Shown here: one piece after another, positions 24,367-62,301 of the stretch | Layout of the letters: every line of letters begins with the position of its first letter | Numbering within the stretch: the first letter of the stretch is position 1 | Assembly (NCBI GenBank): GCA_016787645.1 | Contig: JAEUUF010000013.1 | Location: forward strand, 124,001 to 188,000 | Source of the DNA: Cyclobacteriaceae bacterium | Lineage (GTDB): Bacteria; Bacteroidota; Bacteroidia; Cytophagales; Cyclobacteriaceae | DNA length: 64,000 bases | Reading direction: 5' to 3' | Translations under genes and position numbers: made by a program | Notes under the pieces: model-generated | Databases searched by the model: none | What the model was told of the DNA's origin: nothing | Seen by the model: only the letters and a program-made list of their open reading frames with translations

Positions 24367-25068
24367 ATGATCCACAAAGTGGTCAAGAATGCCGACGACG
24401 CCATACGCGATATTCCCGACAATGCCACCTTGATGGTGGGTGGCTTCGGGCTTTCGGGGATCCCGGAGAATTGCCTGGCTGCCTTGCTAAGAAAAGGAAC
24501 GAAAGGGCTGACATGTATTTCCAACAACGCCGGGGTGGACGACTTCGGCATTGGACTTCTTCTTAAAACTCACCAGGTGCGCAAGATGATTTCCTCGTAC
24601 GTCGGCGAGAACGAAGAATTCGAGCGGCAGTTACTCTCAGGCGAGTTGGAGGTGGAATTGATTCCGCAAGGAACCCTTGCCGAACGGATTCGCGCCGGGG
24701 GTGCAGGCATTCCGGCGTTCTTCACACCAGCCGGCGTTGGTACGGAGGTAGCGGAAGGAAAAGAAACACGAACGTTTGAAGGAAAGGTTTATCTGATGGA
24801 ACGCTGGCTTCGGGCCGACTACTCGCTGGTGAAAGCATGGAAAGGAGACACCCTCGGCAATCTCATTTACCGCGGAACAGCACGCAATTTCAACCCGATG
24901 ATGGCCGCGGCAGGGACAATAACCATCGCGGAGGTCGAAGAACTTGTGCAGCCGGGAGAGCTGGATCCGAATACGATCCACACGCCGGGCATCTATGTTC
25001 ACCGAATCTTCAAAGGGAGCAATTACGAAAAACGTATTGAACAGCGGACCGTTCGCTCAATTCGGTAA
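24367..25068 (+). CDS. scoA: Succinyl-CoA:3-ketoacid CoA-transferase subunit A
   Basis: A 233-residue class I CoA-transferase alpha subunit. It has the [12 protein letters not shown] glycine-rich segment (about 24-37), [11 protein letters not shown], and [16 protein letters not shown], all typical of ScoA. With ScoB it moves CoA from succinyl-CoA to acetoacetate, linking ketone and amino-acid breakdown to the TCA cycle. ScoA and ScoB genes are normally adjacent; here they are separated by a 543-base insert with a four-helix-bundle gene. The last codons and the stop lie inside the left repeat of that insert. Confidence 0.92.
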
Positions 25069-25090
25069 TTTGGTAATTCGATAATTCGGC
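25059..25090. repeat. Left inverted repeat, TAATTCGG octamers
   Basis: Four degenerate 8-base units (TCAATTCG, GTAATTTG, GTAATTCG, ATAATTCG) run from 25057 to 25088 and include the scoA stop codon. The 32 bases from 25059 form an imperfect inverted repeat with 25580-25611; of the four mismatches, two would be G-U pairs in RNA. Confidence 0.8.
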
Positions 25091-25123
25091 GATGAAGAGT
25101 TGATAACCGCAATAATAAAATTG

Positions 25124-25137
25124 TCATGTAAACATGA
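25124..25137. promoter_or_regulatory. 14-base palindrome upstream of the four-helix gene
   Basis: TCATGT-AA-ACATGA is a perfect inverted repeat 46 bases before the start of the four-helix gene. It could be an operator or a small hairpin. Short palindromes also precede the genes at 32760 and 61784. Confidence 0.3.
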
Positions 25138-25183
25138 TATCGAGCAACGCTGAAACTCTGTGTACCATTAATACCTTGGCCGA

Positions 25184-25570
25184 ATGGATACCGAGCCAGG
25201 TCAGAAGAAGAAGTACAATCCCAATTTTGGAGAAAACCTGATTGTGAACATGTCCTTTGAGTTTTCAATGAATATCCTTTCTTACTCTTCCTTATTAGAG
25301 GGACATCGGCGGTATGCTCTCGCAAATCAACTAATCCGATCCGGGACTTCGATTGGGGCCAATGTCCGTGAAGCGCAAAATGCAGAATCCAGGCAGGACT
25401 TCATTCATAAAATGAAGATAGCAGCCAAAGAAGCTGACGAAACGGAATACTTTCTGGAACTATGTAATCAATCGCCAGGATATCCAAGTTGCTCCGCACT
25501 GCTCTCAAATATTCTTGCCATCAAAAAGGTTCTTTCAAAAATCATCGCAACAACCAAAAAGAGATCTTAG
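25184..25570 (+). CDS. Four-helix-bundle protein (23S rRNA intervening-sequence family)
   Basis: A 128-residue all-helical protein of the S23/IVS family (PF05635 type). Typical strings are FGENLIVNMSFEFSMNI, ANQLIRSGTSIGANVREAQNAES, and FIHKMKIAAKEADETEYFL. Homologues were first seen inside 23S rRNA intervening sequences of spirochetes and share a fold with Avd of diversity-generating retroelements; no reverse transcriptase is seen here. It lies on the operon strand, between scoA and scoB, within inverted octamer repeats. Biochemical role unknown. The start at 25184 is the first ATG; a later ATG (before SFEFSM) would cut off conserved sequence. Confidence 0.85.
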   Translation: MDTEPGQKKKYNPNFGENLIVNMSFEFSMNILSYSSLLEGHRRYALANQLIRSGTSIGANVREAQNAESRQDFIHKMKIAAKEADETEYFLELCNQSPGYPSCSALLSNILAIKKVLSKIIATTKKRS

Positions 25571-25579
25571 TATCCTATA

Positions 25580-25611
25580 GCCGAATCGTCGAATCACCGA
25601 ATTACCGAATT
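25580..25611. repeat. Right inverted repeat, CCGAATTA octamers
   Basis: Four 8-base units (GCCGAATC, GTCGAATC, ACCGAATT, ACCGAATT) end directly at the scoB ATG. They are the reverse complement of the left repeat at 25059-25090 with 28 of 32 matches. Confidence 0.85.
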
Positions 25612-26271
25612 ATGCTCGACAAAATTGGAATTGCAAAGCGCATCGCCCAGGAAGTCCGGGACGGGATGTACATTAACCTGGGGATCGGTATTCCCACCCT
25701 CGTGGCCAATTACATTCCGAAGGACATTCATGTCATTCTGCAATCCGAGAATGGGCTACTCGGCATTGGCCCTTTCCCGACGGAGGACAAGGTAGATCCG
25801 GATTTGATCAATGCAGGGAAGCAAACCATCACCATGGTACCGGGTTCGGCGCTTTTCAGCTCGGCAGAAAGTTTCGGGATGATCCGAAGCGGGAAAGTAG
25901 ACCTGACCATTTTGGGCGCCATGGAAGTTTCCGAAGACGGCGATATCGCCAACTGGAAGGTGCCCGGCAAGATGGTAAAAGGCATGGGCGGTGCGATGGA
26001 CCTGGTGGCCTCGGCCAAAAATATTATAGTGGCCATGCAGCATTGCAGCAAGGATGGCGCCTCCAAGCTTCTGAAGAAATGTACGCTGCCCATCACCGGG
26101 CTGAAGTGCGTCAAGCGGATCGTTACCGACATGGCGGTGCTCGAAGTTTTGCCTGGCGGAGGGTTCCGCCTCCTGGAGCGCGCTCCGGGAGTCACCGTTG
26201 ACCAGGTTAGGAAAGCCACGGCAGGAAGACTGGAGGCTCATGACGACGTGCCCGAAATGCGCCTTCAATAG
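25612..26271 (+). CDS. scoB: Succinyl-CoA:3-ketoacid CoA-transferase subunit B
   Basis: A 219-residue CoA-transferase beta subunit. The catalytic glutamate is Glu46 in LQSENGLLGIGP; INLGIGIPTLVANYIP precedes it and GGAMDLVASAKNIIVAMQH follows. The ATG at 25612 begins the conserved LDKIGIAKRIAQE sequence; longer upstream frames run through the repeat and the four-helix gene and are not real. The start codon directly abuts the right repeat of the insert, so its usual translational signals may have been replaced. Confidence 0.93.
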   Translation: MLDKIGIAKRIAQEVRDGMYINLGIGIPTLVANYIPKDIHVILQSENGLLGIGPFPTEDKVDPDLINAGKQTITMVPGSALFSSAESFGMIRSGKVDLTILGAMEVSEDGDIANWKVPGKMVKGMGGAMDLVASAKNIIVAMQHCSKDGASKLLKKCTLPITGLKCVKRIVTDMAVLEVLPGGGFRLLERAPGVTVDQVRKATAGRLEAHDDVPEMRLQ

Positions 26272-26299
26272 TTAACTTGCCACCCCAAGTTGCAACTCC

Positions 26300-26635
26300 A
26301 TGAAGAAATCCAAGATTGAGTTTACAGTTCATCTCGATGATGCCAATACACCCGAACGAATAGAGTGGAATGCCACCGATAAGCCCGAACCCGGATTCTC
26401 AGAAACGAAGTCCATCAGCATCTCGCTGTGGGATCATTCCCAGAAAAATACCATGCGTATCGACCTCTGGGCCAAGGACATGCCGGTCGACGAGATGAAG
26501 CGCTTTTACATTGACTGCATCGGCGGGCTTAGCCAAAGTGTGCTGTCCGCCACAGGAGATGAGCATATGGCGGCGGAGATGAACGCCCTTTGCGAGCGAC
26601 TGGCCCGGTACGTCAGGGAATCCGAGCGTCAGTAG
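26300..26635 (+). CDS. gldC: Gliding motility protein GldC
   Basis: A 111-residue protein matching GldC: KKSKIEFTVHLDDANTPERIEWNATD at the N-terminus, DLWAKDMPVDEMKRFYID in the middle, and the C-terminal LCERLARYVRESE helix. GldC is a small cytoplasmic or peripheral protein linked to gliding in Bacteroidota; it is not a core type IX secretion component. It follows scoB by 28 bases. Other gld genes are not in the window. Confidence 0.92.
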   Translation: MKKSKIEFTVHLDDANTPERIEWNATDKPEPGFSETKSISISLWDHSQKNTMRIDLWAKDMPVDEMKRFYIDCIGGLSQSVLSATGDEHMAAEMNALCERLARYVRESERQ

Positions 26636-26695
26636 CCTGATCCTTAGGCTTCTGTGAGGTCCCTACCGTGTGCTAAAATCCAAAAGCACAATCGT

Positions 26696-26724
26696 TTGTA
26701 TTTCTGCAATTTCTCGTAGATTTA
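26696..26724 (+). promoter_or_regulatory. Promoter of the TonB receptor gene
   Basis: TTG at 26696-26698, 18 bases, then TAGATTTA at 26717-26724 (seven of eight matches to TAnnTTTG). The start codon is 22 bases downstream. It fits the Bacteroidota housekeeping promoter consensus. Confidence 0.6.
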
Positions 26725-26746
26725 AGAGATTAAACCATTACTTCTT

Positions 26747-29560
26747 ATGAAAAAATTCTACTCATGGTCGCTGCTGTCCTTCTGTCTTTTGCTGGCGGGC
26801 AGCACGAATGTATGGGCGCAGGCAACTACCATATCCGGTACTGTAAAAGATCAGGCCGGGACCCCAATTCCCGGGGTGAACGTGGTAGTCAAAGGAACTG
26901 TCGCTGGAACGATAACCGATGTTCAGGGAAATTATTCCCTCACGGTCAAACAGGCGCCGCCGTTTACCCTTTCATTCTCCTTTGTGGGTTATCAAACCCA
27001 GGAAATCGAGGTCAAGGACGGGGCGGCCACCACGGTTGACGTGGCGATGCAGGAAGGTACCCTGCTCGGCGAAGAGGTCGTGGTTTCCGGCAGCCGCTAC
27101 CCGGAAAGCTACATGAAATCGGGGGTCACCATCGAGAAGATGGATATCCTCGAAATCAAGGCAGCCCCTACCCCGGACTACTATGACGGCCTAGCTAATA
27201 TGAAAGGCGTGCAGGCCAGCTCGGGCAGCTTGAACTTCACCGCCATTAATACAAGGAGTTTTGCCACCATCGCCAACGTGCGCTTCGTGCAGTGGGTAGA
27301 TGGTATGGATACCCAGGCACCCCTCCTGAACTTTCCTACCGGCAATATTATCGGTATCGGTGAATTGGACGCAGAGAGTATGGAGCTGATCCCTGGCGCA
27401 TCCTCCGCATTGTATGGCCCTAACGCCTTCAACGGAATCCTGATCATGAAGAGCAAGAGCCCCTTCGAGTACCAGGGTCTCAGCGCCCAACTGAAGTATG
27501 GCATGACCCAGCAGAGCGGACTCTCCTCCAACCCGATGACGCAATACAGCCTCCGGTACGCCAAGGCCTTCAACAACAAATTTGCTTTCAAGATCAACGG
27601 AACCATCATGAAGGCGAAGGACTGGTTGGGCAATGATTACAAGACCGACCGGGTGAACCCGGAGTCAAAGACCGATCTCAGCGGCACCAATAATTTTGAC
27701 GGCCTGAACCTCTACGGGGACGAAACGCAGATCAACTTACAATCCGTTCTTCCCAGCCTCGGCGTAATCACCCGTACGGGCTTCCGCGAAGAGGATCTCG
27801 TGGACAACCGCGAGGCCAACAGCTACAAGTTCGATGCCGCCATCGCCTATAAGATCACCGACAAGATCGAAGCTTCGCTGAGCTATCGGTACGGCGGTGG
27901 AAGTTCAATCTACCAGGGAACTGAAAAGTATGCGCTCCGTGACTTCTCCCAGGAATTCATCAAGGCAGAAATTAAAGGTGACAACTTCTTCCTTCGCGCT
28001 TACCAGACGGCGACTGATGCCGGTAAGTCCTATAACCTCACGGCACTGGGAGCTTATATGAATGAAACGGTAAGCCCTTCTTCCTCCACCTGGGTACCTG
28101 ACTATGTGGTGGCCATGCAAGGATATGTTCCTGGCGTGCCTGCAGGAACACCTTCAGCAGCGAGGGCTTTCGCCGACCGCAACCGGCCGGTTCCGGGAAC
28201 ACCTGAATTCGCGAACCTCATCAGCACGGTAAAGGCCAATTATTTCCAGAAGACCCCTACAGGTGTTTGGTATGATAAGAGTGGCAACCCGCATAACGCT
28301 GCCGGTGGAGCTTCTTTCTTTGATAATTCCAAACTCTACCACATTGAGGGTAACTACCAATTCCGCGAAATGATCAAGTGGGCAGACATCCAGGTGGGTG
28401 GTAACTGGCGGAGATACAGCTTGTTTTCCAATGGCACCATCTTCAATGAGGCCCCCAACGATGGAATCAATTTTGAACGCATCAACATTGATGAATATGG
28501 AATGTACGGCGTGATCGCCAAGTCATTCAGCAAACTGCGCGCTACTGCCTCAGTTCGCTACGACAAGAACCAGAACTTCCAGGGCCAGGTTACACCCCGT
28601 CTTACGCTGGTGTATGAGTTGACTCCTGAAAACAATCTGCGGGCATCGTTCCAGACCGGCTTCCGCAACCCCGATACACAGGCACAGTTCATCTACTTCC
28701 CGTCTTCCGGCGGCACCCTGCTCGGAAGCGCCCAGGCTAACGCCGAGCGTTACTATGTGCACAATGGTGGCGCCTATACACAAGCTTCTTATAACGACTT
28801 TGTAAAAGCAGGTGGAAGCCTTGATCCCAACACCGGTACCCCGATCAACCCAGCCACCAATCCCACAGCAAGCCAGTTGCTGAAGATTGCGAATGTGGCC
28901 TACGTTAAACCGGAGAAACTCTGGTCCGGTGAGGTTGGATACAAAGGACTGTGGCTGGACAAGAAGCTGCTCCTGGACCTGAATGGATATTACACCTCCT
29001 ATGACGGTTTCATCGGTGGACAGATCGTTGCCAGCAAGAATGCTCTGGATCCCCAGGGCAACACCATTAAGCACCAGGGCAAAGCAGTTCTGCCAGGTAC
29101 ACTCTTCTCTCCCTATGTGAACTCTACCCGTGCGGTGACTTCCTTTGGAGCAGGACTTGGGTTCACCTACAAACTGCCTCGCGACTTTGAGCTCAATGGC
29201 AATTACAATTATGCCAACTACACGGCCGAAGAGGACAAGGATTTCCGCGCCGGGTTCAACACCCCGAAGAACCGCGGTTCAGTGGGCCTTAGCAACCGCA
29301 AAATCTTCAAGAACTTCGGTGCTAGCGTCAACTACCGGTACCAGACAGCCTTCTTGTGGGAATCCTCCTATGGAACATGGAATGTTCCTGAATTTGGCGT
29401 GCTGGACGCACAGGTCAGCTATACCGTCTCCAAGATCAAGTCCGTCTTCAAACTGGGTGCGACGAACCTGGGCGGCGGTGATTACCGTACCAACCTCGGC
29501 GCTCCGTATGTAGGACAGCAGTACTACATCTCGGTTACGTTTGACGAGTTCCTGAAATAA
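26747..29560 (+). CDS. TonB-dependent outer-membrane receptor
   Basis: A 937-residue outer-membrane protein: signal peptide (1-25, ending VWAQ), a carboxypeptidase-regulatory-like domain (about 27-113, with GTVKDQAGTPIPGVNVVVKGT), a plug domain (about 115-245, with SSALYGPNAFNGILIMKSK) and a 22-strand-type barrel ending YYISVTFDEFLK. It imports or exports substrates with TonB energy. The next gene encodes an SGNH-hydrolase lipoprotein rather than SusD, so the pair may handle a lipid or ester substrate. A recognisable promoter precedes it. Confidence 0.92.
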   Translation: MKKFYSWSLLSFCLLLAGSTNVWAQATTISGTVKDQAGTPIPGVNVVVKGTVAGTITDVQGNYSLTVKQAPPFTLSFSFVGYQTQEIEVKDGAATTVDVAMQEGTLLGEEVVVSGSRYPESYMKSGVTIEKMDILEIKAAPTPDYYDGLANMKGVQASSGSLNFTAINTRSFATIANVRFVQWVDGMDTQAPLLNFPTGNIIGIGELDAESMELIPGASSALYGPNAFNGILIMKSKSPFEYQGLSAQLKYGMTQQSGLSSNPMTQYSLRYAKAFNNKFAFKINGTIMKAKDWLGNDYKTDRVNPESKTDLSGTNNFDGLNLYGDETQINLQSVLPSLGVITRTGFREEDLVDNREANSYKFDAAIAYKITDKIEASLSYRYGGGSSIYQGTEKYALRDFSQEFIKAEIKGDNFFLRAYQTATDAGKSYNLTALGAYMNETVSPSSSTWVPDYVVAMQGYVPGVPAGTPSAARAFADRNRPVPGTPEFANLISTVKANYFQKTPTGVWYDKSGNPHNAAGGASFFDNSKLYHIEGNYQFREMIKWADIQVGGNWRRYSLFSNGTIFNEAPNDGINFERINIDEYGMYGVIAKSFSKLRATASVRYDKNQNFQGQVTPRLTLVYELTPENNLRASFQTGFRNPDTQAQFIYFPSSGGTLLGSAQANAERYYVHNGGAYTQASYNDFVKAGGSLDPNTGTPINPATNPTASQLLKIANVAYVKPEKLWSGEVGYKGLWLDKKLLLDLNGYYTSYDGFIGGQIVASKNALDPQGNTIKHQGKAVLPGTLFSPYVNSTRAVTSFGAGLGFTYKLPRDFELNGNYNYANYTAEEDKDFRAGFNTPKNRGSVGLSNRKIFKNFGASVNYRYQTAFLWESSYGTWNVPEFGVLDAQVSYTVSKIKSVFKLGATNLGGGDYRTNLGAPYVGQQYYISVTFDEFLK

Positions 29561-29581
29561 CCCTTCTAAATCGAGAACACC

Positions 29582-31267
29582 ATGAAAACAAATAAGATAG
29601 CATCCATTGTTCTTCTGACGGCTCTGTTTACAGGGGCTTGCAAGCAACAACCGATTGTACCGGTAGCCCCTACTCCGCCGGTGACCGAGACCCCCAGCAA
29701 GGGAAATGCGGACTTTACGAAGTTCGTTGCCCTCGGTGACTCCTATGTGGCCGGAGCACAAGGGGGTACACTTTTCAACGCTTCGCTGACCAACTCAATC
29801 CCGAAGATCCTGTCGACACAATTTGCCACCGTCGGCGGAGGCGCATTCAATCAGCCGGATGTTAACCATGAAAACGGTTTGAACTTTGCCGTTTTTGCCG
29901 CTTCTGGTGGTACGGTCAGCTTGGGCCGATATGTACTGTTCGATCCGGATGGCGACTTTGACCCGGATGGACCAGGCTGTGCGACTTCGCGCTCTGCTGC
30001 ACCTCGCGCGGCTGGGACACCCTTGTCCCCTGCTGTTTGCCCGTCAACATCGACCACGCCCGCAATGCCGGCTCCTTATGATACGTATCAGACACTGGGA
30101 TCATTATTAGGCTTCGCTGGAGACAAGGCCGCACTCAATAATTTCGGTGTTCCGGGAACACGCGTTTTCCATACTACCGCAGCCGCCTACGGAGCAGCAC
30201 CCCCCACAGGTAGCCCCTGGTATTTCAGGTTCGCTTCCGCACCGGGTACATCCACGTTGTTGGGTGATGCAGCCTCTAAAGGGCATAAGTTCTTCCTTCT
30301 TTCCATGGGATTGTTTGATATCCTCAGCTATGCAACGGCTGGCGGAGCTGGAAATCCTAACGGTATTGGTTCAGCAGACATGACGCCCGAGGCTGCAGTA
30401 TTCACACCAAGCTACAATGCAAACTTGTCGACTATGCTGACAGACCCTTCCACCAATGGAGTGGTGACTACCATACCTGACATTACCACGCTTCCGTTCT
30501 TCTTCGCGGTAACCTGGAATGCCGTCGAGTTTAAATCAACCAACTGTAGCGACGCCGCAACCATTGCCGGGCTCAACGGTCTGTTCAGCGGATATAACGC
30601 AGCACTGGACGGTCTCCTCCTGGGTGGCTATCCCGGATTAACCGCGGAAGAAGTAGCCAAGCGAAAGGTTTCTTACAAGTACGGCAAGAACCCAGTGGTG
30701 ATAAGTGATGAAGGCCTGACCGATCTGGGCGCCGCATTGGGTGGCATTAGTCCTGCCCTTGCTCAATTCGGAAGAACACGTCCTGCCACCAGCACGGACT
30801 TGATCCTTCTAACTGCAGGATCAGTTCTGGGCACCTGTGCCCCTTCTCCGCCTACCGGCGTGCCGGCTACCAGCTGGATCTGGGGTGTATCCGCACCGCT
30901 CACGGATCAACTGGCGCTCATCCCCACCGAGATTGCTGATATCCAGGCGCGTACCGTGCTGTTTAATACCAAAATCAAGGAACAGGCAGATCTCTTCCCT
31001 GGCCGAGTAGCTGTCGCTGACCTCTACCAGGCCTACAAGGAGCTTGTCACGAATAAAGCATACGCTGCCGATGGAGTAACCATCGTACCTTCCTTCGCTC
31101 CGCCTGCCGGTATGTTCTCAGAAGATGGCATACACCCGAACAGTCGTGGCAACGCCTTTACCGCAAACGTGATCATTGATGCCATCAATGCAAAGTTCGC
31201 TGCTAAGGTGCCCAAGGCAAGCCTGGCCAATTTCTCAGGCACCGGATTGCCGGTCAAAGGTCAGTAA
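29582..31267 (+). CDS. SGNH/GDSL hydrolase-like lipoprotein
   Basis: A 561-residue lipoprotein: lipobox FTGAC with Cys20. The GDSL block VALGDSYVAG places the nucleophile at Ser54, and the C-terminal DGIHPN gives Asp515 and His518 as catalytic partners, so the triad of an SGNH esterase/lipase is intact. The mature protein is rich in small residues and likely surface or periplasm exposed. It starts 21 bases after the TonB receptor, with which it is likely co-transcribed. Substrate unknown. Confidence 0.85.
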   Translation: MKTNKIASIVLLTALFTGACKQQPIVPVAPTPPVTETPSKGNADFTKFVALGDSYVAGAQGGTLFNASLTNSIPKILSTQFATVGGGAFNQPDVNHENGLNFAVFAASGGTVSLGRYVLFDPDGDFDPDGPGCATSRSAAPRAAGTPLSPAVCPSTSTTPAMPAPYDTYQTLGSLLGFAGDKAALNNFGVPGTRVFHTTAAAYGAAPPTGSPWYFRFASAPGTSTLLGDAASKGHKFFLLSMGLFDILSYATAGGAGNPNGIGSADMTPEAAVFTPSYNANLSTMLTDPSTNGVVTTIPDITTLPFFFAVTWNAVEFKSTNCSDAATIAGLNGLFSGYNAALDGLLLGGYPGLTAEEVAKRKVSYKYGKNPVVISDEGLTDLGAALGGISPALAQFGRTRPATSTDLILLTAGSVLGTCAPSPPTGVPATSWIWGVSAPLTDQLALIPTEIADIQARTVLFNTKIKEQADLFPGRVAVADLYQAYKELVTNKAYAADGVTIVPSFAPPAGMFSEDGIHPNSRGNAFTANVIIDAINAKFAAKVPKASLANFSGTGLPVKGQ

Positions 31268-31290
31268 GCCGCAAGGTTGTAAAAAAAGAG

Positions 31291-31312
31291 AAGGGGCTTC
31301 GGCCCCTTTTTT
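31291..31312. terminator. Bidirectional terminator between SGNH gene and metF
   Basis: AAGGGGC-TTCG-GCCCCTT, a seven-base-pair stem with a stable TTCG loop, followed by T residues on the plus strand and, a few bases past the stem, a T-run on the minus strand. It sits between two convergent stops (31267 and 31321). Confidence 0.88.
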
Positions 31313-31320
31313 ATTGTGCT

Positions 31321-32285: not shown

Positions 32286-32381
32286 GTTTCTGCGTGTCTG
32301 AGTATCTAAGTATCTGAGTATCTAAGTATCTGAGTATCTGAGTATCTGAGTGTCTGAGTGTCTAGGTGTTAAGGTGTCTGG
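32286..32381. repeat. Octamer array GTATCTGA / GTGTCTGA
   Basis: Twelve consecutive 8-base units, for example GTGTCTGA, GTATCTAA, GTATCTGA (repeated), GTGTCTAG and GTGTCTGG. The array begins nine bases upstream of the metF start codon and ends one base from the stop codon of the four-helix gene at 32383. It is inverted relative to 32854-32998. Confidence 0.92.
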
Positions 32382-32382
32382 G

Positions 32383-32760
32383 TTAGGTCTTATTTCTAGA
32401 CATAAGGTATTTTATCAGTTTTCGATTCATTGCCCTAATCTTCAGGGTTGATTGATGAAGGGTCTCAACTTCTTGATCAGTCCAATAGCCAAGATCCTTT
32501 GCTGCATATGTAATACTCCTTACTTCATTGGCCGAAGCTGATGCAATCTCATAAAAGCGAATCGACTCGCGGCAACTCATGCGTCCAAATCCTTCGGCAA
32601 TGTTGCTCATCACGGAAAGTGCTGCTCTCCGAACCTGGTCCTTGAACCCGTAATCTCCCGATACCTCGCCTTTGGCTGTCATTTCATACACGATTTTGAC
32701 CAAATATCTCGCTTCTTGCCAACATCTTAAGTCTTCAAATCTCTCAATCATTGCCATCAC
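32383..32760 (-). CDS. Four-helix-bundle protein (23S rRNA intervening-sequence family)
   Basis: A 125-residue all-helical S23/IVS family protein (start 32760; 32757 or 32751 also possible). Typical strings are FEDLRCWQEARYLVKIVYEM, FKDQVRRAALSVMSNIAEGFGR and SIRFYEIASASANEVRS, closer to the canonical family than the copy at 25184. It is on the operon strand between metH and metF. Its stop codon is one base from the flanking octamer array. Function unknown; the family is known from rRNA intervening sequences. Confidence 0.9.
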   Translation of the reverse strand: MMAMIERFEDLRCWQEARYLVKIVYEMTAKGEVSGDYGFKDQVRRAALSVMSNIAEGFGRMSCRESIRFYEIASASANEVRSITYAAKDLGYWTDQEVETLHQSTLKIRAMNRKLIKYLMSRNKT

Positions 32761-32772
32761 TAACTTATTTCC

Positions 32773-32784
32773 GGCAATATTGCC
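32773..32784. promoter_or_regulatory. 12-base perfect palindrome upstream of the four-helix gene
   Basis: GGCAATATTGCC lies 12 bases upstream of the start codon of the minus-strand four-helix gene. It has operator-like symmetry; no binding protein is known. Confidence 0.35.
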
Positions 32785-32853
32785 TTTGTTCTATTCCTAT
32801 CAACGAATCATATGTCCAAAAATCCTGATCAACCTTAGCAACACTATAACAAC

Positions 32854-32998
32854 CCAAATACCAGACACCTCAATACCCAGAAACCCTTACACCTATCACC
32901 CAGATACCCAGACACCCAGACACTCAGACACCCAGACACCCAGACACCCAGACACCCAGATACCCAGACACCTAGACACCCAGATACCCAGACACATC
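32854..32998. repeat. Octamer array ACACCCAG / ATACCCAG
   Basis: About 18 consecutive 8-base units on ACACCCAG, ATACCCAG, ACACTCAG and ACACCTAG, more degenerate toward 32854-32900. The array ends two bases before the metH stop codon at 33001. Apparent open frames with DTQTPRH-type repeats across it are artefacts of the octamer. Confidence 0.92.
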
Positions 32999-54392: not shown

Positions 54393-54406
54393 ACAACTAT
54401 TTGATA

Positions 54407-54414
54407 CAAAAATA
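54407..54414 (-). promoter_or_regulatory. -7 element of the DUF1573 gene
   Basis: On the minus strand TATTTTTG is a perfect TAnnTTTG match, 14 bases upstream of the start codon. No clear -33 box. Confidence 0.4.
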
Positions 54415-54451
54415 AGGCTATTTGCACTAACCCTGTTTTCTTTGCATTCCT

Positions 54452-55426: not shown

Positions 55427-55427
55427 G

Positions 55428-55457
55428 GCCACAGATTACACAGATTTACACAGATTA
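55428..55457. repeat. Left decamer repeat CACAGATTA
   Basis: Three decamers (CCACAGATTA, CACAGATTTA, CACAGATTAG) running from 55429 to 55458, inverted relative to 55924-55953. Confidence 0.85.
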
Positions 55458-55535
55458 GTATACGGTCCAATTTTGTCAGGTTTTCCTGCAGTCTGGCTTG
55501 ATTGCCTTGTACTCAGATGTTCAGAGATTGCTGAT

Positions 55536-55916
55536 GTGAGCACTGAGTACTACTACAAGGAAGAAACCTATCTGATTATTGGCATCTGCATGGAAGTTCA
55601 TCGCGTGCTGGGGCATGGCTTTCTGGAGGTTGTGTACAAAGATGCCATTGAGTTAGAGTTGACCGAACGGAGAATTCCCTTTAGTCGGGAGGAGGAGTAT
55701 TTGATTGACTACAAAGGCGCCACACTCAGGCATAAGTACAGATCAGATTTCGTAATCTATGACAAGATCATCATAGAAATTAAGGCTCAGGAAGGTGGGC
55801 TCGTTAAAGCAAATCAGAAACAGACCATAAATTACCTCAAGGCCTCCGGATGTAAGATAGGGTTGGCCATCAACTTTGGCAAAGCCAGTCTCGAGTACAA
55901 ACGCCTTGTTTTATAG
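55536..55916 (+). CDS. GxxExxY protein, PD-(D/E)XK-like
   Basis: A 126-residue protein; the GTG at 55536 is the best start because the family's conserved region begins soon after (YLIIGICMEVHRVLGHGFLE), although a longer frame exists upstream. The name-giving motif is GFLEVVY. The later RSDFVIYDKIIIEIKA supplies Asp, Glu-x-Lys of a PD-(D/E)XK nuclease-like core (PF13366 type). The family's activity is unproven. It is transcribed in the same direction as trpS and lies between inverted decamer repeats. Confidence 0.85.
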   Translation: MSTEYYYKEETYLIIGICMEVHRVLGHGFLEVVYKDAIELELTERRIPFSREEEYLIDYKGATLRHKYRSDFVIYDKIIIEIKAQEGGLVKANQKQTINYLKASGCKIGLAINFGKASLEYKRLVL

Positions 55917-55923
55917 CTGCCCC

Positions 55924-55953
55924 AAATCTGTGCTAATCTGTGCAATCCGTGGC
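55924..55953. repeat. Right decamer repeat TAATCTGTGC
   Basis: Three decamers (AAATCTGTGC, TAATCTGTGC, AATCCGTGGC), the reverse complement of the left repeat, ending two bases from the stop codon at 55956. Confidence 0.85.
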
Positions 55954-55955
55954 AT

Positions 55956-56363: not shown

Positions 56364-56585
56364 GGGAGGAATTTTCGGCAAGATAGCCAGAAAGAACCGC
56401 ACGTCGCAAGCCAACCCCGCTGCGGTTAATCTATCTTTAATGCCCCACCCCCCAGGACGGTGCTGCTATCCGAACGATGCTCCGTATAAGATGGTGATAC
56501 ACGTTTATTTCGCTGTTCCGGAATCCCTGGCGCTTGTCATCAATACCCGGCGAATACGTAACTTTACCCATCAAATTCACGGCAT

Positions 56586-57680
56586 ATGCAAAAGGACTTC
56601 CTCCCAATCAACGGTACCGATCATATCGAGTTTTATGTCGGCAATGCCAAACAGGCTTCGTTGTATTACCAGCATTGCTTTGGCTTCAACCTGGTTGCCT
56701 ATGCGGGACCTGAAACGGGCATCCGTGACCGCGCTTCCTACGTACTCCAACAAGACAAGATCCGGCTGGTCCTTACTACTTCATTGCAGCCTGGCTCTGA
56801 AATTGCCGAGCATGTCGCCCGCCACGGTGACGGCGTAAAAGTGCTGGCACTCTGGGTGGATGATGCCACCAAATCTTTTAACGAAACGGTAGTCAGGGGT
56901 GCGCAGCCGGCCTTCGCGCCGCATACTATGAAAGATGAGTTTGGCGAGGTGGTCCTTTCGGCCATTCGCACGTACGGAGATACACTCCACACTTTTGTAG
57001 AAAGAAAGTACTATAAAGGCGCATTCCTTCCCGGGTATAAGCCTGTCAAATCAACTTTTACTTCCACCCCGATCGGCCTGAAGTACGTTGACCATTGTGT
57101 CGGCAATGTCGAATTGGGTAAAATGAATACCTGGGTGGAATTCTATGAGAAAGTGATGGGATTCAGCCTGCTGATTACGTTTGATGACAAAGACATCTCG
57201 ACGGAATACAGCGCGCTTATGTCCAAGGTGGTCTCCAATGGCAACGGTTACATTAAGTTTCCAATCAACGAGCCCGCACAAGGGAAAAAGAAATCGCAAA
57301 TCGAAGAATACCTTGACTTCTATAAAGGCGCCGGCGTGCAACATATTGCCATCGCTACGGATGACATCATTCACACCGTCTCCGAACTGCGCCGCCGTGG
57401 CGTGGAATTCCTCTACGTACCCGAAACCTATTACGAAGACGTGATGGGTCGTGTAGGGGAAATCAATGAATCGTGGGATGAATTAAGGAAGCAGAACATT
57501 CTCATTGACCGTGATGAGGAAGGCTACCTGCTCCAGATCTTCACAAAACCTGTCGAAGACCGGCCGACATTATTCTTTGAAATCATTGAGCGCAACGGCG
57601 CCAAATCGTTTGGCAAAGGGAACTTCAAGGCCCTGTTCGAGTCCATCGAACGCGAACAGGCCCTCCGTGGAAATCTTTAG
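56586..57680 (+). CDS. hppD: 4-hydroxyphenylpyruvate dioxygenase
   Basis: A 364-residue non-heme iron dioxygenase of the vicinal-oxygen-chelate fold. The two-His-one-Glu iron site is His170 (YVDHCVGNV), His253 (VQHIAIATDD) and Glu332 (LFFEIIERNG). It converts 4-hydroxyphenylpyruvate to homogentisate in tyrosine catabolism, which later yields fumarate and acetoacetate. ScoAB in this window could activate that acetoacetate. No homogentisate genes are adjacent. Confidence 0.95.
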   Translation: MQKDFLPINGTDHIEFYVGNAKQASLYYQHCFGFNLVAYAGPETGIRDRASYVLQQDKIRLVLTTSLQPGSEIAEHVARHGDGVKVLALWVDDATKSFNETVVRGAQPAFAPHTMKDEFGEVVLSAIRTYGDTLHTFVERKYYKGAFLPGYKPVKSTFTSTPIGLKYVDHCVGNVELGKMNTWVEFYEKVMGFSLLITFDDKDISTEYSALMSKVVSNGNGYIKFPINEPAQGKKKSQIEEYLDFYKGAGVQHIAIATDDIIHTVSELRRRGVEFLYVPETYYEDVMGRVGEINESWDELRKQNILIDRDEEGYLLQIFTKPVEDRPTLFFEIIERNGAKSFGKGNFKALFESIEREQALRGNL

Positions 57681-57717
57681 CCGCGCCTAATTCGGACATC
57701 GCACTATCCTTTCGACT

Positions 57718-59451
57718 ATGATCCAGACTTCTGAACTCCTCTCCCAATCGACGGCCCGCGCCAAAGAATGGCTGGCCAGCAACATTGATGCAGATTCCAA
57801 GAAACAGGTGGAGGCCTTGCTCAACCGCGAGGATCCCAAACTGCTCATCGACAGCTTTTACAAGACACTTGAGTTTGGCACAGGAGGACTCCGCGGAATT
57901 ATGGGTGTGGGCTCCAACTGCATCAACCGGTATACCATTGGCGTCGCTACGCAGGGCCTGGCGAACTACCTGAAGAAGACTTATCCGAAAGAACCAGTTC
58001 AGGTGGCCGTTGGCTACGACAGTCGTAATAACAGCAAGTATTTCGCCCAGGTCACCGCGGATGTGTTTTCCGCCAATGGCATCACGGTCCACCTGTTCCC
58101 TGAACTCCGCCCCACTCCCCTGCTCTCCTTTGCCATCCGGCACCTAAAATGCCAGTCGGGCGTGGTTATCACTGCATCGCATAACCCGAAGGAGTACAAC
58201 GGTTATAAAGCGTACTGGAATGACGGCGCGCAACTTGTACCCCCTCACGACAAGAACGTCATCAAGGAAGTCAACGCAATCACCAGCTTTGATCAGATCA
58301 AGTTCAATTCAGATCCGACGAAGATCAAGACCATTGGGCCTGAACTGGAAGAAGCATACTACCAGGAAGTGCAGAAGCTCATTCCCCGGAAGGAAAGCAT
58401 CAAGAAGCAAAGCCAGACTTCCATTGTCTATTCCAGCCTACACGGTGCAGGAATTACCATGGTTCCTGAATGCCTCAAACGACTTGGATTCCAAAATGTC
58501 ACGATCATCGAAGAGCAGCGTGTCCCCGATGGCAACTTCCCCACTGTTGAATCTCCCAACCCGGAAGAGCGCTCCGCGATGGATCTGGCTCTGCGCAAAG
58601 CTTCGGCCATTGGGGCTGATCTCGTCATGGCTACCGACCCGGATACCGACCGTGTTGGAATAGGCATTCGCAACCCAAAGGGAGAATTCTTTCTGCTCAA
58701 TGGCAACCAGGCCCTCAGCCTGATGATGTGGTTTATCCTGAAAAATCTCAAAGATCCCAAAGAAAGCTACGTTGCCAAGACGATTGTGACCACAGATCTC
58801 ATTGACCGAATGGCTGAACACTTCGGGGTTGAATGCGTCAATACCCTGACAGGCTTCAAATACATCGCTGAGTTGATTCGAGACAATGAGGGCAAAAAGA
58901 AGTTTATCGCCGCGGGTGAGGAGAGCTACGGGTATATGGTCGGTGATTTTGTCCGCGACAAGGACGCTGTCTCCGCCTGCGCATTCTTTGCGGCGATGTT
59001 GGCGGCTGCCAAGGATGAAGGACAAAGCCTCTTTGGTTGGCTCGTTGAGATGTACCGTGAATTCGGTCTGTATCGAGAAGGATTGGTGAATGTCGTCCGG
59101 AAAGGGGCTGAAGGTGCGGGCCAGATCAAGTACATGATGGAACGCTTCCGCAGCAATCCCCCGCATGTCATCGCCGGTCAGAAAGTAATCCGGCTGTTGG
59201 ATTATGAGCGAAGCATCGAACGCAACTTGTTGAACGGGCACGAAAGGCCGATAACTCTTCCTAAATCTGACGTTCTGCAATTTCTGACTTGGGAAGGCGC
59301 TAAGATTTCAGTTCGTCCGTCAGGCACGGAACCGAAGATCAAGTTTTATGTCAGTGTCAATCTCCGGCTCACCGATCCTAAAAACTTTGAATTGGCGATG
59401 GAGCACCTGGGGGACAAGATTGCGGCGATTGAGAAGGACCTTGTCAGGTAG
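57718..59451 (+). CDS. Phosphosugar mutase (phosphoglucomutase/phosphomannomutase)
   Basis: A 577-residue alpha-D-phosphohexomutase. The active-site serine is Ser154 in TASHNPKEYNGYKAYW; the metal loop is DPDTDR (Asp307, Asp309, Asp311); the sugar-binding and phosphate-binding loops are GEESYGYM and RPSGTEPKIKFY. Length matches the long phosphoglucomutase/phosphomannomutase branch. The last codons belong to the first of three tandem copies of a 109-111 base repeat that continues past the stop. Confidence 0.92.
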   Translation: MIQTSELLSQSTARAKEWLASNIDADSKKQVEALLNREDPKLLIDSFYKTLEFGTGGLRGIMGVGSNCINRYTIGVATQGLANYLKKTYPKEPVQVAVGYDSRNNSKYFAQVTADVFSANGITVHLFPELRPTPLLSFAIRHLKCQSGVVITASHNPKEYNGYKAYWNDGAQLVPPHDKNVIKEVNAITSFDQIKFNSDPTKIKTIGPELEEAYYQEVQKLIPRKESIKKQSQTSIVYSSLHGAGITMVPECLKRLGFQNVTIIEEQRVPDGNFPTVESPNPEERSAMDLALRKASAIGADLVMATDPDTDRVGIGIRNPKGEFFLLNGNQALSLMMWFILKNLKDPKESYVAKTIVTTDLIDRMAEHFGVECVNTLTGFKYIAELIRDNEGKKKFIAAGEESYGYMVGDFVRDKDAVSACAFFAAMLAAAKDEGQSLFGWLVEMYREFGLYREGLVNVVRKGAEGAGQIKYMMERFRSNPPHVIAGQKVIRLLDYERSIERNLLNGHERPITLPKSDVLQFLTWEGAKISVRPSGTEPKIKFYVSVNLRLTDPKNFELAMEHLGDKIAAIEKDLVR

Positions 59452-59742
59452 ATAAGTGTGATAGCCGCGCGGCTGGATTTAAACCGCAAAATGTAGAATG
59501 TCAAATGTAGAATGTAAAAGGAATTACAAGTGGGCGATTGAGAATGAGCTAGTGGGGTAGAATAAGTGTGATGGTCGCGCGGCTGGGTTTTAAACCGCAA
59601 AATGTAGAATGTCAAATGTAAAATGTAAAAGGAATTACAACTTGGCGATTGAGAAGGAGCTCGTGAGGTAGAAAAAGTGAGATAGCCGCGCGGCTGGCAT
59701 TAAACCGCAAAATGTAGAATGTCAAATGTAAAATGTAAAAGG
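59424..59742 (+). repeat. Three tandem copies of the mutase 3' end plus flank
   Basis: Units start at 59424, 59533 and 59644 (spacing 109 and 111). Each contains the last codons of the mutase gene (GCGATTGAGAAGGA and similar, still readable as AIEKELVR plus stop in copy 3), a GCCGCGCGGCTGG palindrome-like stretch, and a tail of heptamers (AATGTAG, AATGTCA, AATGTAA, AATGTAA). This 298-base region between the mutase and DinB holds no other gene. It is a local tandem duplication. Confidence 0.9.
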
Positions 59743-59749
59743 ACGGAGT

Positions 59750-60205
59750 ATGAATTTGGCTACTGAATCGTTGATGGCATTGTATAACCGGGACCTGGAT
59801 AAGCTGGCGGAAGAATTGAAGCAGTATCCCTCGGAGGAATCGATCTGGAAGGTCCAGGAGGGGATCGCCAATTCGGCTGGTAACCTGTGCCTGCACTTGT
59901 GTGGCAACCTGCAGCACTTCATCGGGGCGGTGCTCGGCAAGACCGGTTATGTGAGAAACCGGGATGCTGAGTTTGCCTCCAAAAACATTCCCCGCGCGAC
60001 ACTCCTCGAGCAAATTGCGCAGACTAAAGCCGCTATTGCTCAAACCTTACCCATTCTTCCCCACGAGCAACTCCATGCGCAGTATCCTGTTGATGTGTTC
60101 GGTAGGCCGATGACTACGGTTTATTTCCTGATGCACCTTGCGACGCACCTCGGATATCATCTTGGGCAGGTGAATTATCATCGCAGACTGGTGGGTAGTC
60201 GGTGA
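59750..60205 (+). CDS. DinB family protein (DUF1572 type)
   Basis: A 151-residue four-helix protein of the DinB/YfiT-like metal-binding superfamily. The conserved histidines lie in LHLCGNLQHFIG (about residue 44-54) and HLATHLGYHLGQVNYHRR near the C-terminus. Family members bind a divalent metal and some act as thiol-dependent transferases; the role here is unknown. The start follows the third tandem repeat copy and the stop lies inside a heptamer array. Confidence 0.88.
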   Translation: MNLATESLMALYNRDLDKLAEELKQYPSEESIWKVQEGIANSAGNLCLHLCGNLQHFIGAVLGKTGYVRNRDAEFASKNIPRATLLEQIAQTKAAIAQTLPILPHEQLHAQYPVDVFGRPMTTVYFLMHLATHLGYHLGQVNYHRRLVGSR

Positions 60206-60246
60206 TCAGTGACCGGTAACCAGTGACCAGTTGCCAGTGACAGGCG
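60198..60246. repeat. Heptamer array across the DinB stop
   Basis: Seven 7-base units (GTCGGTG, ATCAGTG, ACCGGTA, ACCAGTG, ACCAGTT, GCCAGTG, ACAGGCG), containing the DinB stop codon. They are the reverse-complement relatives of the array at 2764-2826. Confidence 0.75.
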
Positions 60247-60280
60247 ACGTGAGTGGTAACCAGTTGCAGTTAGTAGAAAA

Positions 60281-61618
60281 TCACAGAGTTTTTATCAAGT
60301 CAACAATCTCAGGAGTCGTGGCACGGGCAACGCCTTCATCATCAATTGTATCAATTCGCACCGTCCGAATCTCATTGACGAGGTCTTGCTCCACGGGTAT
60401 AGCTACCCGAACGTAGTTCTCGGTGAAGCCGTGGATGAAGCCATCTTCAATATCATCCTCGAAAAGTACTCGCCTGGTTGAACCGAGGTTTGCTTCGTAG
60501 AATACGCGTCGCTTCTTGTCTGAAAGAATATGAAGCATCTTCGACCTTTGGTGACGAACGTTCATCGGCACCGGGTCGGGCATCGCAATTGCCAGTGTGT
60601 TCTCGCGCTCGGAATAGGTGAATACGTGGAGGTAAGAAATTTCCAGTTCGTTGAGAAAGTCGTAGGTCTCAAGGAAGTCTTCGTTAGTCTCGCCAGGAAA
60701 TCCCACAATGACATCCACGCCGATGCACGCGTGCGGCATCTCCGCCTTGATCTTCGCCACCCGTTCGGCATAGAGTTCGCGCAGGTAGCGGCGACGCATC
60801 AGCTTGAGCATGCGGTTGGACCCTGACTGCAACGGTACATGAAAATGCGGGGCGAACCTTTTGGACCCGGCCACGAACTCGATCACTTCGTTGGTAAGCA
60901 GGTTCGGCTCGATCGAAGAGATCCGAAAGCGTTCAATTCCTTCTACCTCATCCAGCGCGCGGACCAGGTCGATAAAACGTTCTTTGCGTTCACCTTGCTG
61001 AATTCCAAAATCGCCGGTGTTCACGCCTGTGAGCACAATTTCCTTCACGCCTGTAGTCGCTATTTCATGTGCGGCTCTCACAATATTCACCACCGTGTCG
61101 CTCCGGCTCGCTCCCCTGGCCAACGGAATCGTGCAAAAGCTGCAAGAGTAATCACAGCCATCCTGGACTTTGAGGAAGGTCCGTGTTCTATCCTGCATGG
61201 AAAACGAAGTATGAAAAGTATTCACGTGGTCGATATCACAGGAGTACACCACGGGCTGCGGTGGTCGGACAAAGCCATCCAGCAACTCGATCAACCTGAA
61301 CTTCTCCTGGGCACCCAACACCGCATCCACCCCTGGAATTGACGCGATCTCTTTCGGTTTCAACTGCGCATAGCATCCGATAATGGCCACGTAGGCATTC
61401 GGCGAGATGGCCCGCGCATCACGAACGAGCTTATGACACTTCTTGTCCGCGTTTTCCGTGACTGAACAGGTATTGATAATGAAAATGTCAGGTGTATCCG
61501 TAAAGTCGACCTTCTGGTACCCCTTCTCCTCGAATTTCCTTGAAATGGTGGAAGTCTCGGAGTAGTTGAGTTTGCAGCCCAGGGTGTAGAAGGCGACTTT
61601 TTTCATGTGCGGATGCAA
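60281..61618 (-). CDS. mtaB: tRNA t6A37 methylthiotransferase MtaB
   Basis: A 445-residue radical-SAM methylthiotransferase. Order: UPF0004 domain (about 5-120, TLGCKLNYSET, NTCSVTENADKKC, IIGCYAQ), radical SAM domain with the cluster motif DYSCSFCTIPLARG (CxxxCxxC), and a C-terminal TRAM domain (about 385-440). TLGCKLNYSE places it with MtaB/YqeV, which make ms2t6A in tRNA, and not with MiaB. The start may be the second Met. Confidence 0.93.
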   Translation of the reverse strand: MHPHMKKVAFYTLGCKLNYSETSTISRKFEEKGYQKVDFTDTPDIFIINTCSVTENADKKCHKLVRDARAISPNAYVAIIGCYAQLKPKEIASIPGVDAVLGAQEKFRLIELLDGFVRPPQPVVYSCDIDHVNTFHTSFSMQDRTRTFLKVQDGCDYSCSFCTIPLARGASRSDTVVNIVRAAHEIATTGVKEIVLTGVNTGDFGIQQGERKERFIDLVRALDEVEGIERFRISSIEPNLLTNEVIEFVAGSKRFAPHFHVPLQSGSNRMLKLMRRRYLRELYAERVAKIKAEMPHACIGVDVIVGFPGETNEDFLETYDFLNELEISYLHVFTYSERENTLAIAMPDPVPMNVRHQRSKMLHILSDKKRRVFYEANLGSTRRVLFEDDIEDGFIHGFTENYVRVAIPVEQDLVNEIRTVRIDTIDDEGVARATTPEIVDLIKTL

Positions 61619-61661
61619 AGATACCGCGCTGGGCGATATCCCTCAAAACAAAAGTGCCCTG

Positions 61662-61718
61662 CCTTGCGGATGAAGTGGGTGACCACCGCAAAGGCACAAG
61701 GACGCGAAGGCCGCTAAG
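61662..61718. repeat. Left repeat with CGCAAAGG octamers
   Basis: CCTTGCGGA, a 17-base stretch, then ACCACCGCAAAGGCACAAGG followed by ACGCGAAGGCCGCTAAG; the last part is four octamers (CGCAAAGG, CACAAGGA, CGCGAAGG, CCGCTAAG, 61687-61718). CCTTGCGG and CCGCAAAGG are themselves inverted. Confidence 0.85.
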
Positions 61719-61758
61719 ATTGTCATGATTTCCTTCGCTCAAGAGTTTGAGCTGAACC

Positions 61759-61777
61759 AAATAATTAGTCATTATTT
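61759..61777. promoter_or_regulatory. Inverted repeats upstream of the second GxxExxY gene
   Basis: AAATAAT-TAGTC-ATTATTT (61759-61777) is a perfect seven-base inverted repeat ending six bases before the ATG. A second perfect one, GCTCAA-GAGT-TTGAGC, precedes it at 61737-61752. They may be an operator or may fold over the start region. Confidence 0.4.
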
Positions 61778-61783
61778 GCAGGT

Positions 61784-62173
61784 ATGAAGACAAGAGAGGA
61801 ATTAGATTCACTTTCCGCACAAATTCTGGATTCAGCCATCAAGGTGCATCGGGCTATGGGACCCGGGTTGCTTGAGGCGGTTTATCATCATTGTATGCTG
61901 GCAGAGTTAAGATCACGCGACCTCCAGGTAGACACAGCTGTACCTGTGCCCCTTTTCTACGATGGAATGCCCCTCGATAAGGAATACATTATTGACCTTC
62001 TTATCGACGAAGAGATTATTTTAGAGTTGAAATCAGTTGAGGGCTTGCTCCCGGTGCACGAAGCCCAACTTATCAGCTACCTTAGGTTAGCCGATAAGCG
62101 GCTCGGGTTTCTTATCAACTTCAATGTGCCCCTGCTCAAGAATGGATTCAGAAGATTTGTAAACAAATTCTAA
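61784..62173 (+). CDS. GxxExxY protein, PD-(D/E)XK-like
   Basis: A 129-residue protein with the motif GLLEAVY and, further on, IIDLLIDEEIILELKSVEGL, which gives Asp and Glu-Leu-Lys of the PD-(D/E)XK-like core. The sequence differs clearly from the copy at 55536, so it is not a recent duplicate. Both neighbours are on the other strand. It lies between repeats built on CGCAAAGG octamers. Activity unknown. Confidence 0.88.
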   Translation: MKTREELDSLSAQILDSAIKVHRAMGPGLLEAVYHHCMLAELRSRDLQVDTAVPVPLFYDGMPLDKEYIIDLLIDEEIILELKSVEGLLPVHEAQLISYLRLADKRLGFLINFNVPLLKNGFRRFVNKF

Positions 62174-62180
62174 CTCCTTG

Positions 62181-62237
62181 CCTTGCGGAGGGATGGGGTG
62201 ACCACCGCAAAGGCACAACGACGCCAGGGACGCAATG
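62181..62237. repeat. Right direct copy of the left repeat
   Basis: The 44-base repeat CCTTGCGGA...ACCACCGCAAAGGCACAA matches 61662-61705 at 39 positions, in the same orientation, and starts eight bases after the GxxExxY stop. Confidence 0.9.
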
Positions 62238-62261
62238 ATTGAACACATTTTGATCTACTCC

Positions 62262-62301
62262 TCTTTGCGCATCCTTGCGGCTTAGCGTCTTTGCGGTGGT
62301 T
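62262..62301. repeat. Inverted copy with octamers, CTTTGCGG type
   Basis: CTTTGCGCATCCTTGCGG followed by CTTAGCGTCTTTGCGGTGGT; the reverse complement reads as octamers CGCAAAGA, CGCTAAGC, CGCAAGGA and matches the left repeat around ACCACCGCAAAG. Confidence 0.8.

Follow-up and report, generated by a model that had tools for sequence, protein, structure and literature searches.

Why should small genes of two unrelated families lie between mutually inverted arrays of short repeats, four times over, in a single 64,000-nucleotide stretch of a Cyclobacteriaceae bacterium genome (GenBank assembly GCA_016787645.1, contig JAEUUF010000013.1, positions 124,001 to 188,000; hereafter the window)? We find that the arrays and the gene form one unit in which the arms follow the protein and not the host, that the repeat word is specific to the protein family, and that whole cassettes have been swapped between the stop and start codons of their neighbours in hosts whose flanking genes are near-identical. 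We put at about even the chance that each insert, made up of a left array, a small gene and an inverted right array, is a selfish cassette that resembles REPIN/RAYT systems and homing elements while being built on other proteins.

The four inserts lie where the first-pass annotation of the window had placed them, at 25059-25611, 32286-32998, 55428-55953 and 61662-62301. As it had also proposed, each holds one small gene, which Pfam assigns to PF05635 in inserts 1 and 2 (a four-helix-bundle protein) and to PF13366 in inserts 3 and 4 (a GxxExxY protein), and alignment confirmed mutually inverted arms in all four. When inverted, the arms of insert 1 (25059-25093 and 25577-25611) are identical at 30 of 35 positions, those of insert 2 (32286-32388 and 32891-32995) are 78% identical, and those of insert 3 (55428-55456 and 55925-55953) agree at 25 of 29 positions; the arms of insert 4 (61675-61720 and 62262-62307) give a gapped inverted alignment with a score of 31. 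The proposed layout of inverted left and right arms therefore stood, but was incomplete for insert 4, in which the left arm recurs in direct orientation to the right of the gene (61657-61722 and 62176-62241, 83% identity), giving the order L-gene-L'-R. Insert 1 lies between scoA and scoB and insert 2 between metH and metF, inserts 3 and 4 lie between protein-sized open reading frames, and none is in a 23S rRNA gene. The scoA stop codon falls inside the left array of insert 1, and the scoB ATG, at 25612, directly follows the right array. The features of the four inserts are as follows.

25059-25093, plus strand: insert 1 left array, AATTCGGT unit, containing the scoA stop codon
25184-25570, plus strand: insert 1 four-helix-bundle gene, PF05635 / TIGR02436, 128 amino acids
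25577-25611, plus strand: insert 1 right array, inverted, with the scoB ATG next to it
32286-32388, unstranded: insert 2 array beside the metF start, the right arm of a minus-strand cassette
32383-32760, minus strand: insert 2 four-helix-bundle gene, PF05635, about 125 amino acids
32861-32998, unstranded: insert 2 array beside the metH stop, the left arm, inverted relative to the other array
55428-55456, plus strand: insert 3 left array, CACAGATTA unit
55473-55486, plus strand: insert 3 box TTGTCAGGTTTTCC, common to other cassettes of the genome
55539-55916, plus strand: insert 3 GxxExxY gene, PF13366 / TIGR04256, 125 amino acids from a GTG start
55925-55953, plus strand: insert 3 right array, inverted
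61675-61720, plus strand: insert 4 left array, CGCAAAGGCAC... unit
61720-61733, plus strand: insert 4 box TTGTCATGATTTCC
61784-62173, plus strand: insert 4 GxxExxY gene, PF13366, 129 amino acids
62176-62241, plus strand: insert 4 second left-arm region in direct orientation, sharing 83% identity with 61657-61722
62262-62307, plus strand: insert 4 right array, inverted relative to 61675-61720

The genome as a whole (4.02 Mb in 28 contigs, of which our contig C15 holds the window) contains seven PF13366 genes and seven PF05635 genes, one of the latter (L007) scoring under the family cut-off. Read in gene orientation, short-period arrays were visible by eye on both sides of all 14. In order to score the arms, we aligned the 250 nt upstream of each gene locally with the reverse complement of the 200 nt downstream and compared the result with 200 dinucleotide shuffles. 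Thirteen of the 14 genes beat every shuffle, the exception being L009, compared with one of 375 other genes drawn from 464 kb of the same genome and one of the 78 genes that have at least 60 bp to both neighbours. This comparison with genes of comparable spacing had been suggested in the first-pass annotation, and it sets the two families apart. Lone arrays of similar units are common in the genome, so a single array carries little meaning; what is rare is the inverted pair around these genes. The sole control gene to pass, the same in both sets, lies at 5445-6365 of the window and encodes a protein with an endonuclease/exonuclease/phosphatase fold. It sits between inverted GTGTCTAA/GACACC arrays (5252-6629) and is a possible third cargo. 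A de novo search for a third cargo over the 464 kb, by eye, found no short-period inverted pair beyond the cassettes other than this one and a gene-less hairpin at C15:543870-544260, in which inverted AGGAGTT arrays lie 274 nt apart with no open reading frame of at least 60 amino acids, as in a decayed or empty cassette.

The same framing occurs well beyond this genome. PF05635 is present in 90 and PF13366 in 60 of 118 genomes sampled from the phylum; among the best 30 of the more numerous matches to each family in other Bacteroidota, 16 GxxExxY and 11 four-helix loci beat all shuffles, as did nine of 18 further cassettes, of both families, in three genomes of the same family. Among named genomes we located 80 GxxExxY loci, whose hosts include Bacteroidota, Ignavibacteria, Planctomycetota, Chloroflexota, cyanobacteria, acidobacteria, proteobacteria and others; 46 of the 78 that could be tested (L128 and L174, at a contig edge, were left out) beat all shuffles.

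A degenerate arm word, CRCNRAG, is common to GxxExxY loci from several phyla. In the 80 nt upstream of 117 GxxExxY genes it occurs 209 times forward and 51 times in reverse, against 10.5 in shuffled left flanks, and in the 80 nt downstream 58 times forward and 215 times in reverse. The corresponding counts for 37 four-helix loci are four and three on the left and one and one on the right. The repeat word is thus specific to the protein family, with CRCNRAG in most GxxExxY loci and other words, mostly of period 7-9, in four-helix loci; by eye, a GxxExxY subfamily with a LGYGFLEKVYENA-like motif has CACGGAT-like arm words. Within each family the right arm of a locus fits the left arm of that locus more closely than it fits left arms from elsewhere (means of 32.4 versus 18.0 for the 112 of 117 GxxExxY loci ranked, and of 28.5 versus 15.8 for the 37 four-helix loci). 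Furthermore, protein similarity predicts arm similarity when a control flank, which corrects for genome composition only in part, is allowed for (partial Mantel r of 0.27 for 101 GxxExxY and 0.31 for 55 four-helix loci, values reached by none of 999 permutations).

Some GxxExxY loci carry additional repeats. At L144 and L175 a block of about 90 nt, consisting of right arm, spacer and left arm, stands on both sides of the gene, near-identical in L144 and more diverged in L175; such blocks might be what tandem or circular intermediates leave. The cassettes at L098, L113 and L183 have, on either side, further direct copies of their own type of arm repeat that enclose no gene.

One junction in one genus allowed cassettes to be followed between hosts. 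Its downstream gene is present in 146 of 150 congeners, and we examined 90 junctions (the best 30 and 60 of the further matches listed), of which 88 have both neighbours readable (L353 and L388 were left out). A four-helix cassette occupies the junction in 46 of these species and is missing from 42; among the latter, 16 of 40 testable junctions form a hairpin better than 50 shuffles, and two of the 42 are bare (13 and 24 nt). Word counts distinguish three arm dialects, A (CARAG-like), B (CTRAG-like) and C (GTTTAA), and left and right arms are concordant in 44 of the 46 cassettes. Mapped onto the tree of the upstream host gene, dialect requires 18 changes in the 46 species. With L352 and L357 left out, the 44 species of the cassette-protein tree require 17 (FastTree) or 16 (IQ-TREE) changes on the host-gene tree, no fewer than with shuffled labels (mean 17.2), and well-supported branches of the host tree force at least seven changes for B and at least six for A. 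On the protein tree itself the same 44 species need two changes, the minimum possible. The exchange is also visible in pairs of hosts with near-identical flanking genes. L308 and L310 are identical at 447 of 450 nt in the upstream and 863 of 900 nt in the downstream gene, yet their cassette proteins agree at only 74 of 120 residues and their arms differ; L307 and L315 (434/450 upstream, 834/900 downstream, protein 78/124) and L309 and L311 (423/450, 846/900 and 79/120) are alike in kind. Given the contrast between the two trees and the different cassettes between near-identical host genes, arms and gene travel together. In the protein tree, the five dialect-C sequences cluster with L004 and L005 of the window's genome (support 99) and not with the A and B proteins of the same junction, a grouping that points to a separate arrival of dialect C.

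We also compared the sites of inserts 1 and 2 in relatives, taking the best 30 of more matches for each junction and confirming cassette genes by profile search. At the metH-metF junction, metH lies 5' of metF in 29 of the 30 (L233 was left out). The gap is at most 51 nt in 15 of these 29; six, the genome of the window included, hold a four-helix cassette and L220 a GxxExxY cassette; L218, L223 and L231 have a gene-less hairpin that beats 100 shuffles; L229 has what looks by eye like a decayed cassette, with a hairpin that is not significant (14 of 100 shuffles reach its score); and three have other spacers. At scoA-scoB both genes are present in all 30 relatives, and the gap is at most 62 nt in 16 of them (26 nt in G134, a genome of the same genus). 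Four-helix cassettes occupy L235, L237 and L264, and 11 relatives have longer spacers, among them a significant hairpin in L240 that appears by eye to be an internally deleted cassette; the hairpins in the L243, L250 and L262 spacers are not significant. The same junction thus carries a cassette in some genomes and none in others, and where the cassette is missing, a hairpin or a single array without a gene is sometimes found instead. The first-pass annotation had named empty sites in relatives as a check on its proposal, and both tested junctions are indeed bare in many relatives. It had further supposed that the host reading frames are left intact, which is what we found at these junctions, the array itself supplying the scoA stop codon in the window's genome. 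Together, shared framing, empty sites and enrichment support its idea of one cassette class for two unrelated protein families. The scoA-scoB gap of L246, L249, L251 and L256 contains repeats of another family (GAAATATGCCTTCGGCGATATA-like), parts of which look inverted by eye.

Four cyanobacterial genomes, reached via GxxExxY loci, gave 22 four-helix matches, of which 20 were analysed (L285 and L286 were left out). Thirteen of these beat all shuffles, with arm heptamers such as GGGGACT, GAGTCAG and GGGGGCAG, compared with eight of 283 Nostoc control genes and five of 206 at matched spacing; L267 and L271 carry TTGGTCATTTGTCA-type arrays and did not pass the shuffle test. Intergenic tandem heptamers thus form the arms of Nostoc/Anabaena four-helix loci, and we take these heptamers to be units of the short tandemly repeated repetitive (STRR) sequences. 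The available text of one paper on such repeats (PMC4692102) names GGGGA(C/T)T as an intergenic heptamer of Nostoc and GGGAATC as one of Xanthomonas. It states that heptamer repeats are generally not associated with mobile elements and that few are paired as inverted repeats in Nostoc, and gives 70-75 inverted pairs of a heptamer repeat for Xanthomonas. The scarcity of pairs in Nostoc and the lack of a usual link with mobile elements fit lone relics better than intact cassettes. STRR-type repeats resemble those studied here in being the same kind of intergenic array and in framing the cyanobacterial four-helix genes, whereas neither 'four helix' nor 'S23' appears in the main text of that paper, as available. 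In a separate case, the upstream flank of the four-helix locus L066, whose own arms fail the shuffle test, contains TAACTGA, a heptamer found before start codons in marine Beggiatoaceae according to the available text of PMC4679880.

Array matches can be numerous. Among the 150 congeners, matches to a CTRAG array (overlapping matches counted) range from none in 74 genomes to 393 in one, and total 6674 against 213 for the reversed pattern. At least 20 such matches occur in 33 of 40 species with an A or B cassette at the junction and in nine of 48 others (Fisher P = 2e-9). Of 17 Bacteroidota genomes with at least eight CRCRRAG pairs, a count that takes in the cassettes' own arms, 16 encode GxxExxY, compared with 60/118 overall (Fisher P = 1e-4, Mann-Whitney P = 0.009).

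D67, E77 and K79, which correspond to the D...ExK of the nuclease superfamily, are present in 110 of 110 aligned GxxExxY proteins of 110-190 amino acids; no relative among solved structures was found for GxxExxY at E values up to 1. The four-helix proteins match the known structures 2gsc and 2rld, and XCC0516 of X. campestris is described, in the text available for it, as a pentamer of four-helix bundles. At G026:C9:91047, G054:C1:72351 and G038:C22:338274 the GxxExxY domain lies within an 883-amino-acid open frame, possibly a fusion protein. From these properties and the patterns above we infer word recognition, pairing or cutting of the ends, allele conversion and seeding of gene-less copies. 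A four-helix pentamer ring or a PD-(D/E)XK nuclease would bind its cognate words in the two inverted arrays and bring the cassette ends together or cut them; the cassette would then be copied, by recombination across the neighbouring genes, into an allele with no cassette or a foreign one, much as in homing. Now and then it may also spawn gene-less array copies elsewhere, as is thought for RAYT proteins and REPINs, and lone arrays, STRRs included, would be by-products and relics.

Several results weigh against this selfish-cassette reading. Binding, cleavage and movement were not observed, and we know of no catalytic site in the four-helix protein. The first-pass annotation had envisaged spreading between genes, but no recent movement to a new site was seen. 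When one whole B-dialect cassette was searched as DNA in the 150 congeners, scoring the four best candidates per genome, every match of at least 76% that extended for 370 nt or more lay at the same junction, and those elsewhere were shorter, mostly the coding part or about 48 nt of the right arm (among five arm matches inspected by eye were a lone array, L446, and two apparent hairpins without a gene, L448 and L449). The exchange that is visible as recent is allelic, and ordinary homologous recombination in the conserved genes on either side would likewise exchange alleles. A target duplication could not be read at empty versus filled sites because the two are too diverged. The link between arrays and gene is not significant once phylogeny is corrected for (of six supported independent pairs, an average of 2.1 favoured the link, 0.1 opposed it and 3.8 showed no difference), and seven of the 40 A/B species have fewer than 20 CTRAG-array matches. 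Dialect-A genomes are rich in CTRAG arrays (median 129.5), so the abundance of arrays is not tied to the dialect found at the junction. Few columns underlie the host and protein trees, whose support is weak, and 24 of 40 testable gene-less junctions are not significant hairpins. Lastly, the shuffle test was failed by 19 of 30 four-helix and 14 of 30 GxxExxY loci of the phylum and by 32 of the 78 named-genome GxxExxY loci.

One further feature may bear on regulation. A box like TTGTCAGGWTTTCCGT lies 61-64 nt (78-80 nt in two cases) 5' of the start in eight of the 14 cassettes of this genome, which represent both families; the insert 3 box (55473-55486) falls outside these eight, a more upstream start having been used for its gene. 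The box was seen in none of the 18 other same-family cassettes and at two of 60 other loci, and perhaps marks a shared host regulator or promoter. The 14-mer has 156 matches in its own genome against 69 for a reversed control. We also tried the box as a marker of further cargo and rejected it, as only five of 23 sites with at most one mismatch, all of them known cassettes, had clear inverted arms (scores of 31-62, with at most 26 at the rest).

A conserved box of this kind counts for a reading in which the arms are operator sites, the protein regulates itself or its operon, and the cassettes are ordinary accessory genes exchanged by plain homologous recombination through their flanks. This would also agree with an arm word that follows the protein and with observed exchanges that are all allelic. 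Operators, however, need not mirror-frame a gene on both sides, reach up to hundreds of matches per genome or form gene-less hairpins, and GxxExxY retains the full set of nuclease-site residues; we regard this explanation as rather unlikely. Neutral slippage of short repeats in intergenic DNA, independent of any gene, could produce the common lone arrays, but is very hard to reconcile with the 13 of 14 family genes set against one of 375 and one of 78 controls, or with an oriented, family-specific word across phyla, and we consider it highly implausible.

Two further alternatives draw on known elements. The first-pass annotation had allowed that the flanking repeats pair as an RNA stem, and the cassettes might accordingly be insertions of the type of the 23S rRNA intervening sequences (IVSs), with arms that base-pair once transcribed and are then excised by RNase III. 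The arms are complementary, and IVSs, according to the available text of PMC4990558, are stem-bounded and encode the same protein family. If an RNA stem of the coding strand were selected, mismatches tolerable as G-U pairs should exceed those of the mirror kind. We applied this wobble asymmetry twice and on both occasions found the RNA stem unsupported, with no significant G-U excess: the counts were 100 versus 104 for GxxExxY and 37 versus 22 (P = 0.07) for four-helix loci, and 42 versus 72 (P = 0.006, in the opposite direction) in the one genus. Moreover, the arms follow a word tied to the protein, and GxxExxY, a different Pfam family, is framed alike, which makes an RNA insertion improbable. 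Equally slim is the chance that a Y1 (RAYT) transposase acting in trans moves the inserts as REPIN-like elements, with the small genes as passengers. Gene-less hairpins and arrays dispersed between genes do resemble REPINs as described in the available text of PMC3116915, but the word follows the supposed passenger protein, and the four window cassette proteins match only PF05635 or PF13366, no genome-wide RAYT search having been made.

The selfish-cassette reading is best placed beside these systems by what is shared. As in REPIN/RAYT systems (PMC3116915, available text), repeats stand beside a small protein gene, the repeat type is specific to the protein, and gene-less inverted pairs may likewise be dispersed between genes. 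The REPIN/RAYT protein is a Y1 transposase, whereas here it is a four-helix bundle or a PD-(D/E)XK nuclease; REPIN arms are single palindromes, here replaced by tandem arrays of 7-11 base words; and each RAYT is single copy according to the same text, whereas several cassettes occur per genome here. The cassettes thus work most like REPIN/RAYT, yet the four window cassette proteins lack its defining feature, a Y1 transposase in the element. With 23S rRNA IVSs, for which inverted repeats around the S23p open reading frame within the rRNA gene are described (PMC4990558, available text), inserts 1 and 2 share a four-helix-bundle (S23p/PF05635) frame in an insertion bounded by inverted repeats, and inserts 3 and 4 do not. 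Unlike IVSs, the inserts lie between protein genes, carry family-specific tandem words, include GxxExxY in the same design and give no sign of RNA-stem selection. PF05635 also resembles the Avd protein of diversity-generating retroelements (PMC10053308, available text), and L001 matches the Avd model weakly (21 bits against a cut-off of 80); in contrast to such a retroelement, a cassette is one short gene in about 0.5-0.7 kb. With homing elements the cassettes share site-preserving exchange between alleles; GxxExxY keeps D67, E77 and K79, a putative nuclease site for which the four-helix family has no known counterpart.

In the open-licence literature we found no paper that joins the PF05635 or PF13366 families to tandem-array arms, which is no proof of absence. 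It is possible, though we hold it somewhat short of even, that the cassettes represent an undescribed class of selfish element present in many phyla. In such a class a tiny protein, from either unrelated family, and the paired inverted arrays of its word would co-diversify; the element would home between alleles, seed up to hundreds of gene-less arrays per genome and be the source of STRR heptamers, with the 23S rRNA IVS as one special landing site. If so, an origin linked to a function would be gained for arrays of tandem heptamers and octamers that have been listed with no gene assigned to them, and TIGR02436 and TIGR04256, widespread families of unassigned role, would belong to a single type of element. 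The protein-word pairs would form a natural series in which to study how a recognition code evolves, and a gene with mirrored repeats, as an exchangeable unit, may explain the origin of some short bacterial repeats. At the 88-species junction, gain, loss, exchange and decay can be counted directly.

Elsewhere in the window, positions 59424-59743 hold about three copies of a 111-bp repeat, each containing AAAATGT heptamers, 5' of a DinB-like gene at 59750.

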